The notes under the pieces were generated by a model that saw only the letters and a list, made by a program, of their open reading frames with translations, made no database searches and was not told the origin of the DNA. Position numbers and translations under genes: made by a program. From assembly GCA_938083135.1 (NCBI GenBank), contig CALLKY010000013.1, forward strand, positions 1-64,000: 64,000 bases of DNA. Direction: 5' to 3'. Below are positions 46,858-51,647 of this stretch, one piece after another. How positions within the stretch are numbered: the first letter of the stretch is position 1; each line of letters opens with the position of its first letter. Source of the stretch: an uncultured Alphaproteobacteria bacterium (lineage in GTDB: Bacteria; Pseudomonadota; Alphaproteobacteria; Bin95).

Positions 46858-48231
46858 TTAAGCCGCGTCCAGGTTCTTCAGGAACTCGCTAATGCCAGTA
46901 TGGAGCTGCGCGCCGACATCGCGCAGATCATCCGCCGTTTTAAGGATCAGTTCAGACGCTTCACCTGTAACACTGGCACGTTCATTCACTGCCGCACAGT
47001 TTTCGGCAACACTCGCTGCCCCCTTCGACGCCTCATGCATGCTCTCAGAAATCCCGCGCGCTGTGACGGTCTGTTCTTCAATACTAGCGGCGATGCAGGT
47101 CGTCGCCTCATTGACGCTCGCAATGGTGTCACCAATGCTGGAAATCGCGCCGCCTGCTTGCTCCGACACGCCTTGAATCTCAATAATTTGGCGAGAAATT
47201 TCCTCAGTGGCACCAGCCGTTTGCGCAGCCAACGCCTTCACTTCAGCAGCAACGACAGCGAATCCACGCCCGGCCTCGCCCGCGCGCGCCGCTTCGATGG
47301 TTGCGTTCAATGCCAGCAGATTGGTCTGGGCCGCAATTCCGCTGATGAGCTTCACAACCTCCCCAATCTTTTGGGCAGAGAGCGCCAGACTTTGGACGGT
47401 TTCCTGTGTGGCCGCAGCCCTCTCCATCGCGTCCCGCACAATTGCTTCGGAGCGCACAGCTTGGGCGCTAATTTCCTGAATAGCATATGCCAATTCTTCA
47501 CCGGCCGCCGCTGCCGTATTGACGTTTTCTGCCGTTTGAATGGTTGCGCTGGCGACTTCAGTTGAGAGGCCCTCTGTCGCCTGCGCAGCGCCCGCTACAG
47601 CCTGCGCTGCATGGTCAAGTTTGGCGGTTTGGCCGGTAATGTCGTCAACCAGGCTGCCTAGGCCCGTTGACATTTCAGCAGATAATTCCCGGACCAATGC
47701 TGTCCGTTCAGCGGCAGCTTCCTCGTAATAGATGGACATTGCGATATCCATATCGAGGATTAGCGCCTTCTGGATCGCCTCAGTTATCGCCTTCAGACGT
47801 GCCGGCTTACGGCGATACTTCCGCATCGCGACGCCGCTAAGCAAATTCAGAAATGTCGCGCAACTGCCAATGAACCAGCGTGGTTCCAGCCCACTTTGAT
47901 AACGAGAACGGCCGATCTTCTGCGTCGTCATGAAATAGGCTGCATCAAACCCACCCGTAAACATGGCCCGCCATTGCAGGGCTTGGCTTGTGCGGAATTT
48001 ATCTTCGTTACCGCGCATATGCAGCGCTGCCGTTGGTACCGCCATCGAATGAGCAATAAAAGCATCAAGCACATCCTGCAGTTCAGCCTCAAGCATTGGC
48101 CAAAAATCCTGCAATTCACGGAGATCACTCTCTGTTAAGCCTATAAACTGATAGCGTTCCTGCATATCAGGCTGGCCCGATTGCAGCATACCCTGGCTAT
48201 CACTAGCGAGTTGATTGTACTTATCTTGCAT
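46858..48231 (-). CDS. Globin-coupled chemotaxis transducer lacking proximal His
   Basis: A soluble transducer of about 457 residues. The N-terminal sensor (about 20-180) has the protoglobin/HemAT fold ([23 protein letters not shown], then [19 protein letters not shown]). The C-terminal methyl-accepting signalling domain has the conserved hairpin tip around [31 protein letters not shown]. In HemAT the proximal heme His precedes an x-x-x-MF motif; here that position is Gln86 (LQWRAMF), so heme binding is doubtful. No membrane segment is present. The start is uncertain: the ATG at 48231 has no clear ribosome site, and a TTG at 48267 is also open. Confidence 0.88.
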
Positions 48232-48320
48232 ATCAATCACGAATTTATGGGCACGCACATGCGACAACTCAGCATCGCGTGATAACCTTAAGCGCCCGTG
48301 AATATCTACCTTTGAGCGCG

Positions 48321-49205: not shown

Positions 49206-50255
49206 TCACGACAGAATGAAATCTGTTTCTGCCAGCGCGGCCGCGCTAACGCCATTCAGGACAACCAAGTCATCGCCAACGAAATCGATCAGCGCCCTAC
49301 TGCCTGAAGGTGTGATCAAGGGCTGCACTTCAGTCGCGAAATCTACAAATCCATAGGCGCTGATGTCGATCTTGTCTGTCCCGATAGCGAAATCAAAAAC
49401 GATATCCAGACCGTCGCCAGGCGCAAAGACAAACGTATCGACGCCGCTGGAGCCTGCCATCTTATCCGTGCCAGTACCGCCGGTGATTACATCATCGCCG
49501 CCTTGACCAAGCAGCACATCATTCCCGCCACCGCCCAGAATCGTATCGGCTCCACCGCCTGCTTTCACAAGGTCATCACCGTTCCCGAGGCCGTAAGTCT
49601 CATCGCCAGACCGGCCAATAAAGAACAGGTCATCGTCCGTCGAGGTAATCTGTTGGTTTGCCGCCACGCGCACGCGTTCAATGCCGGTAAACATATCAAC
49701 CAGCGTCAGGTCCAACACGTCCGAAGACTGGACCACCAGGATATCGCGAATACCCTCACCACCATAAAGCTTGTCGCCAGCATTGAGTTGGTCTGCACGC
49801 TCGAAGATCAGGTCATCGCCTTCGCCGCCGAAGGCCGAATCTTCGCCAAACCCGAGTACAAGGCGGTCCGTACCTGCGCCGCCATGCAGAACATCATCGC
49901 CCAACTTGCCATTCAGCACATCATCCCCAGTGCCGCCGAAAGCAGTATCATCGCCGCTGCCAAGCGAGCCGGTATCGCGACCTTGACCGCCGCGTACAAC
50001 ATCATCGCCGCCGCCTGCATTGAACACATCATCGCCCTGCCCAAGCCGGAGAACGTTGTTCTGGCCATTGCCGATAACCGTCTCTGACGCAGCCGTTCCA
50101 GCATGGGTAATGGCCCCGGTATCGAAGCCAAATACAACATAGCCCTCGCCAGCTTCATCTGCTCCTGCGGCTGGACCGCCAAGGATCACATCATCAAACC
50201 CGTCCCCGTTCACATCCCCACCGCCGGAGACACGGCTGCCGACATAGTCTTCCAC
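49206..50255 (-). CDS. RTX C-terminal part of a split FG-GAP/RTX protein
   Basis: A 349-residue frame from a GTG. Its first 30 residues are the end of an FG-GAP repeat (GSRVSGGGDVNGDGFDDVILG), continuing the pattern of the upstream frame without loss. Two blocks of calcium-binding RTX nonapeptides (about 72-150 and 215-275, GGxGxDxxx type, e.g. GGGGNDVLLGQGGDD) follow, then a C-terminal segment with DIVFDFAIGTDKIDIS typical of type I secretion substrates. It lies in the same reading frame as the upstream ORF, separated only by a TAA and three codons. It may be expressed alone, by readthrough, or not at all. Confidence 0.8.
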   Translation of the reverse strand: MEDYVGSRVSGGGDVNGDGFDDVILGGPAAGADEAGEGYVVFGFDTGAITHAGTAASETVIGNGQNNVLRLGQGDDVFNAGGGDDVVRGGQGRDTGSLGSGDDTAFGGTGDDVLNGKLGDDVLHGGAGTDRLVLGFGEDSAFGGEGDDLIFERADQLNAGDKLYGGEGIRDILVVQSSDVLDLTLVDMFTGIERVRVAANQQITSTDDDLFFIGRSGDETYGLGNGDDLVKAGGGADTILGGGGNDVLLGQGGDDVITGGTGTDKMAGSSGVDTFVFAPGDGLDIVFDFAIGTDKIDISAYGFVDFATEVQPLITPSGSRALIDFVGDDLVVLNGVSAAALAETDFILS

Positions 50256-50264
50256 CGCAATACC

Positions 50265-50267
50265 TTA
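50265..50267 (-). other. In-frame TAA splitting the FG-GAP/RTX reading frame
   Basis: Reading the minus strand, CTG TAA GGT lies in one continuous frame from 51599 to 49206 (about 800 codons). A sister repeat reads 'FRLQGERQYDTSGRSV', and the broken one reads 'IRL-stop-GIAVEDYVGSRV'. The missing residue is therefore most simply Gln, so a CAA-to-TAA change would explain the stop. Confidence 0.85.
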
Positions 50268-51599
50268 CAGTCGAATACCGTCTGACCCATCCAATGCCGC
50301 AATGCTCAAACTAGCGCCGAGCGCGGCTTGCGAGCCAAATAATATAATCGCTTCGCCCGCCTTATTCGCTCCCCCCGGAGCGCCGATGATCAGGTCGTCC
50401 AACCCATCAGCATTGAAATCGCCAGCGGCCGAAACCCGGAAACCTGAGCCAGAAATCTCTGTATCGCCCAATATCTCTACGCCGTCAGTGCCATCGAGCG
50501 TTGCAAGATCGATTGCGGCACCAAAGCCGCCTGATTTGCCAAACAGCAGATAGCTAACCCCAGAAAGCTGAGCGCCCGGCACACTTGCACTCGGCGCGCC
50601 GATGATCAGATCGGCAAACCCATCGCCATTGAAATCTCCGGCACCACTAACGCTGAAGCCTGCCCTGTCAAATGTGTCTACGCCATCTAAGCGAAAGCCA
50701 TTTGAACCATCAAGCGTGTCTAGTGGGATATCGGCCGCAAAAGACTTCGCGCCAAAAATGACGTAGCTCTCGCCTGCTTGCAGGTCACCGCCGGGGTCAG
50801 CATCAAATGCGCCGATGATCAGGTCTTGCAGCCCATCGCCGTTGACATCCCCCGCACCTTTGACTGAATAGCCACTGGCGTCATCCTTATCGATACCAGT
50901 AATCGAGAACCCGTCTGCCCCATCCAAACTGCCAAGGTTGATGTCTTGGGCAAATGCCGTAGCGCTGCCGAACAGTACATAGGTCCGGCCTACAGTCGTC
51001 TCCGCTCCGTCATTACCGCCAGATGCGCCGATTGCGAGATCAGCAAAGCCGTCTCCGTTGATATCCCCAGCAATACTAACGCTCCGTCCAGACGTGTCGT
51101 ATTGCCGTTCGCCTTGGAGCCTAAAACCATCAGTCCCATCAAGGTTATCGGGGTCAATAACGGCTTGGAACGGTCCTGCCTTCCCAAATACGACATAGGT
51201 CTCGCCGGAACTTTGTAATCCGCCGGGATCGCCATAGACATCGGTCATAACAACATCAGCAAACCCATCGCCGTTGATGTCGCCGCTCAAGCTCGCCGCA
51301 TCCCCAGCAGCAAACGCCGCAGACCGCCCAATGATACGAAAGCCGTCCGTGCCGTCTAAGCCTGTAACGTCAATCGATGAATCAAAGCCCGAGGCTTTCC
51401 CGAAGATGATATATGATTCCCCAAGGGCGGCACCGCCGCTATCCCCGCCAGAATCATCCGTGATCATAAAGTCAGCAAAACCATCACCATTCACGTCACC
51501 AGCGAGATCAATGCCAAGGCCAAGGTCACCATTCGTGTTATTGGCGAACAGACGAATTCCGTCGGTGCCATCAAGATCACTCAAATTCAACTGAAGCAT
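50265..51599 (-). CDS. FG-GAP repeat N-terminal part of the split protein
   Basis: A 444-residue frame made almost entirely of seven FG-GAP (integrin alpha-type) repeats of about 63 residues. Each runs LDGTDGFRL, a variable loop, then GDxNGDGFADLxIGAP and a YVVFGK-like strand; the DxNxDG sites bind calcium. The protein would form a seven-bladed beta propeller on the surface or outside the cell. The frame ends at a TAA exactly where an eighth 'DGSDGIRL' unit should continue as x-G. No signal peptide is present, which fits type I export through the RTX tail encoded downstream. The ATG at 51599 has AAGGA 8 bases upstream. Confidence 0.8.
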   Translation of the reverse strand: MLQLNLSDLDGTDGIRLFANNTNGDLGLGIDLAGDVNGDGFADFMITDDSGGDSGGAALGESYIIFGKASGFDSSIDVTGLDGTDGFRIIGRSAAFAAGDAASLSGDINGDGFADVVMTDVYGDPGGLQSSGETYVVFGKAGPFQAVIDPDNLDGTDGFRLQGERQYDTSGRSVSIAGDINGDGFADLAIGASGGNDGAETTVGRTYVLFGSATAFAQDINLGSLDGADGFSITGIDKDDASGYSVKGAGDVNGDGLQDLIIGAFDADPGGDLQAGESYVIFGAKSFAADIPLDTLDGSNGFRLDGVDTFDRAGFSVSGAGDFNGDGFADLIIGAPSASVPGAQLSGVSYLLFGKSGGFGAAIDLATLDGTDGVEILGDTEISGSGFRVSAAGDFNADGLDDLIIGAPGGANKAGEAIILFGSQAALGASLSIAALDGSDGIRL

Positions 51600-51647
51600 G
51601 ATCGGCATCCTTTATTTCAAGCCATAGCCGACCTGGCGCTCATGCCC

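Follow-up and report, generated by a model that had tools for sequence, protein, structure and literature searches.

Does a soluble chemoreceptor that keeps the globin fold but has lost its heme-holding residues still sense O2? This question is raised by a gene on the minus strand of the window, a 64,000-nucleotide stretch of DNA from an uncultured alphaproteobacterium. An initial annotation had read the product as a HemAT-type chemotaxis receptor with Gln in place of the proximal heme His, which would sense something other than O2 or bind heme differently.

Architecture and predicted fold

The gene (46858..48231, minus strand) is complete and encodes 457 amino acids, with its stop at 46858 and its likely start at ATG 48231; an in-frame TTG at 48267 is an alternative. 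Its reading frame is intact, and the match to the orthologue L004 starts at the same ATG. Pfam detected a Protoglobin domain at residues 22-171 (PF11563, E=4e-26), in line with the sensor globin delimited with the help of an AlphaFold2 model and Foldseek (residues ~22-172; 47716..48168, minus strand), followed by an MCP signalling domain (PF00015, E=8e-30; residues ~263-416; 46984..47445, minus strand). Comparison with the genome's two other MCPs revealed a canonical tip and a soluble protein without a transmembrane segment, its top 19-residue hydropathy being 1.24 versus about 2.5 in those two receptors. Only Protoglobin and MCPsignal scored above the Pfam cut-off; the C-terminal STAS domain typical of the RsbR family was absent. 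Combining a protoglobin, an MCP domain and solubility, the protein is an MCP-type globin-coupled sensor and HemAT-like by architecture. The domains first assigned to this reading frame were thereby confirmed, and every sequence motif quoted for it, including GLEPRWFIG, is found in the protein. HemAT of B. subtilis and H. salinarum and Atu1027 of A. tumefaciens are likewise cytoplasmic, have no HAMP domain and join an N-terminal sensor globin of the same fold to an MCP module.

The proposal that the globin fold is kept held up when the structure was predicted. AlphaFold2, run with a two-row alignment, returned a globin-like model with the expected helices (mean pLDDT 80; 56-80 across five models), from which the fold, and no ligand, can be read. 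Foldseek listed AfGcHK, HemAT and GsGCS as top PDB matches (E 2e-6 to 3e-5, rmsd 1.7-2.1), the HemAT match (1or4_B) reaching a TM of 0.84 by target length at an rmsd of 1.7. In the model, helix E spans residues 76-92 and includes Gln86, and helix F spans 97-113 and carries Arg110 close to its end.

Residues of the heme pocket

Heme ligands were assigned from phmmer alignments with three solved globin sensors, GsGCS (2w31), HemAT (1or4) and AfGcHK (5ohe). In all three, the F8 His stands opposite Arg110, 24 residues beyond Gln86; the F8 stretch aligns gap-free with HemAT RIASIHLRIGLLPKW, whose ligand His123 falls on Arg110. A 115-row alignment verified the columns, equating HemAT His123 with Arg110, His99 with Gln86 and Tyr70 with Ile59. 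The Gln of LQWRAMF, previously taken for the proximal residue, was thus misplaced: it lies on helix E, opposite HemAT His99. Its role as proximal ligand is excluded by the alignment with the three solved sensors and by the His at this site in the orthologue, where the motif reads KHWRAMF. Alignment with HemAT put no other His at the proximal site, and because the true F8 residue is Arg110, the main point of the initial annotation, the missing proximal His, stands, albeit through a residue other than the one it named.

To gauge conservation, we used a comparison set of 112 proteobacterial globin sensors (a class and phylum sample). The proximal F8 site, occupied here by Arg110 (codon CGT, 47902..47904, minus strand), is His in 106 of the 112 relatives. 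At the distal B10 site, Ile59 (ATT, 48055..48057, minus strand) replaces a Tyr present in 108 relatives. Phe120 (47872..47874, minus strand) occupies the site of HemAT Tyr133, which we take to be a heme-pocket residue and which is Tyr in 102 relatives. The orthologue carries the identical Arg, Ile and Phe at these three positions. Gln86 (CAA, 47974..47976, minus strand) behaves differently: since 100 relatives and the orthologue have His there, it is a private change of the window protein, and the expected conservation of Gln in the orthologous clade was not observed.

Seventeen columns are at least 85% conserved among the 112 relatives, and the window protein and its orthologue are both changed in exactly three of them, Tyr59 to Ile, His110 to Arg and Tyr120 to Phe, while Phe58, Gln83, Trp87, Gly107, Gly114, Pro117, Trp119, Asp160 and Tyr168 of the core are retained. 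The chance of drawing that three-column set from 17 is 1 in 680 (15 in 680 for the two literature-backed residues alone), a figure that serves as a guide and not as a test because the columns were not named in advance. In HemAT, His123 is the proximal ligand and Tyr70 belongs to the distal pocket (PMC13401364), the former binding heme and the latter contacting O2; the window protein and its orthologue thus lack both the proximal His and the distal Tyr of a heme-based O2 sensor. Judged by these B10 and F8 residues, the prediction of a heme-free sensor is better supported than the initial annotation knew, on grounds other than its own.

The orthologue, located on the MAG contig CAJXVF010000055.1 (genome G012), is the sole close homologue and was the only match when genome contigs were scanned with the protein. 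It shares 80% identity in the sensor, 91% in the signalling domain and 86% overall, compared with 94-97% for neighbouring genes. Substitution rates (dN 0.076, dS 1.20) give a dN/dS of about 0.06 for the gene and about 0.07 for the sensor, whose dN of 0.12 contrasts with 0.05 in the signalling domain. The gene is under purifying selection and not decaying, although its sensor evolves faster than the neighbours; with only two orthologues known, conservation in the clade refers to two genomes.

Genomic setting and chemosensory partners

The receptor gene is flanked by genes for a luciferase-like monooxygenase and a thioredoxin, an order conserved in G012; in G013 and G011, the thioredoxin gene adjoins a LON-domain gene and the receptor is missing. 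Within the family, MCPs occur only in the receptor's own genome (G000) and in G012, and most family genomes have neither the receptor gene nor any MCP. The receptor is the only protoglobin of its genome, where a search for a second globin sensor of the O2-sensing type found none. A plasmid or phage origin was considered and rejected, the best plasmid match reaching 41%, with one weak phage match and no signs of mobility. Separately, the Microcystis phage MaAM05 (MW495066.1, 20385-20891) encodes a protoglobin-like domain, annotated as hypothetical, with 30% identity to the window sensor. Elsewhere in the window (49206-51608, minus strand), an FG-GAP/RTX-like repeat protein is split by an in-frame stop (50265-50267) into two adjacent same-frame reading frames; the corresponding interval of G012 (L151), bounded by the same neighbours, lacks it.

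Three MCPs, of which the two others are membrane-bound, and one CheA were found in the genome. CheA (Hpt...CheW-CheW-REC), CheW and a CheY-like protein are encoded by consecutive genes at the end of contig C53 (L148:4949-8561). Searches of G000 (99.99% complete) and G012 (83%) found neither FliG nor FlhA, and both are present in G013, of the same genus. Because these two proteins were not found, the output is possibly non-flagellar, and a flagellar output of the receptor is doubtful. The designation 'chemotaxis receptor' is therefore uncertain with regard to output. As an observation in its own right, a CheA-CheW-CheY cluster with three MCPs, apparently without a flagellum, is possibly linked to pili.

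Possible ligands and the recurrence of non-His F8 residues

The protein probably senses something other than O2, since the His that holds heme and the Tyr that contacts O2 are both lost. We consider it reasonably probable that it is a soluble globin-coupled MCP that kept the dimerising protoglobin fold, no longer ligates heme and reuses the cavity for a new ligand. Exchange of the proximal His for Arg110 and of the distal Tyr for Ile59 would have abolished heme ligation, and the emptied cavity would most likely accommodate a different small molecule. Amphipathic or anionic compounds, for example fatty or carboxylic acids, are plausible candidates, their charge being a possible partner for that of Arg110. 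This last step is a conjecture by analogy, drawn from RsbR and from the charge of Arg. Binding would presumably shift the globin dimer; as in HemAT, the signal would travel along a helix that runs unbroken into the coiled coil of the MCP domain and alter CheA activity in a small chemosensory system whose final output may be non-flagellar. The proposal of a kept fold with altered sensing thus gains support from the F8, B10 and Tyr133-site substitutions shared with an orthologue under purifying selection, even though the reason given for it, Gln, was wrong.

Known systems fit this picture in part. Atu1027 lost its function when the predicted heme His was exchanged for Ala (PMC10851874), so a non-His form conserved under selection presumably has a changed function. 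The use of Bacillus RsbR as a precedent for heme-free globin sensors agrees with the literature, as the non-heme globin domain of RsbR in B. anthracis was found with a bound fatty acid (PMC4976288). MabR provides a further heme-free precedent (PMC11617747), and HemAT itself binds ethanol between helices without using heme (PMC7542364). With a predicted globin fold that lacks the residues for heme ligation, the window protein is RsbR-like, a trait it shares with the N-terminal non-heme globin of Bacillus RsbR and with pXO1-118. Their outputs differ, however, being a stressosome STAS domain or a sporulation sensor inhibitor, and they are not detectably closer in sequence than heme-binding globin-coupled sensors, which came first in a PDB sequence search.

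Heme might instead still be bound, loosely or via His61, His71 or Cys124, the last of which only the window protein has, yielding a sensor of heme, NO or redox state rather than O2. Arg, His61 and His71 are still in the globin domain, His71 being common to the orthologue, and unusual ligation may be compatible with the sequence. One known globin has its proximal and distal sites exchanged and uses Lys-His ligation (PMC4476040), and the authors who assigned Glu to F8 in 21 of 40 rhizobial globin-coupled sensors built models with heme all the same, cautioning that the alignment might be in error (PMC4648194). Yet helix F gained no His near position 110, a shifted His is unlikely because the alignment is ungapped from helix E to helix G, the B10 Tyr disappeared together with the F8 His, and Cys124 is Tyr in the orthologue, so that we hold continued heme binding to be quite improbable.

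The globin could also have become a mere dimerisation module, a detector of physical state (temperature, pH, redox or crowding) or part of a methylation-tuned, ligand-independent receptor, with no small-molecule ligand at all. The lower conservation of the sensor relative to the signalling domain and the neighbouring genes favours this idea, and a general receptor is conceivable because the organism has only three MCPs; against it, the sensor's dN/dS is still low and all structural core residues are retained, which leaves this alternative unlikely. Drift in a decaying gene is disfavoured and, in our view, highly improbable: the sole close homologue comes from one MAG and most family genomes lack the gene and all MCPs, but the reading frame is intact in both genomes, dN/dS is low and the loss is limited to heme-pocket columns.

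Among 170 distinct domains, obtained by enlarging the comparison set through targeted searches and not a random sample because families f44 and f105 were deliberately searched, F8 is His in 150, Arg in 16, Gln in 3 and Phe in 1. The non-His residues form four groups, namely the window pair (Arg), f105 (Gln), f44 (Arg) and a single Phe-F8 domain in f36. The window protein's non-His F8 is not unique, as Arg, Gln or Phe recurs in other alphaproteobacterial globin receptors. Non-His F8 residues in alphaproteobacterial sensors had already been reported for rhizobia (Gesto-Borroto et al. 2015, PMC4648194), where the residue assigned is Glu and not Arg. The f44 Arg group comprises 14 rows (L114, L116, L117, L161-L166, L170, L190-L192, L195) from at least three genera, with a FastTree support of 0.96. 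Although its members share the F8 Arg with the window protein, they keep the helix-E His-Trp, differ at B10, where Tyr, Phe or Leu stands in place of Ile, and are not its nearest relatives by sequence. These MCPs occur several per genome beside His-type paralogues, making them a good comparison set for heme-free sensing. The f105 sensors (L048, L051 and L154, from three genomes) have Gln at F8, Ala or Thr at B10 and RWL for RWY, a separate loss of heme residues.

On quick and FastTree trees, in which most deep branches are weak, F8 requires four state changes, two of them forced by strongly supported branches; a single clade of all Arg-F8 rows is not rejected (p-AU 0.286). Only tentatively, we suggest that heme loss reappears in alphaproteobacterial MCP globin sensors, at least twice towards Arg, giving rise to a heme-free 'Arg-globin' class with a new anionic ligand that would here feed a flagellum-less chemosensory array. 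Our literature search, restricted to non-subscription papers, found no published demonstration of a heme-free globin MCP.

Globin-coupled MCPs routinely receive the annotation of an O2 or aerotaxis receptor, which would be wrong for a recurring subset if these proteins are heme-free. If heme was indeed lost, the receptor would offer a testable case of a heme-gas sensor converted to detect a different ligand with its signalling path intact, and the f44 Arg-F8 group supplies several natural proteins for testing this change.
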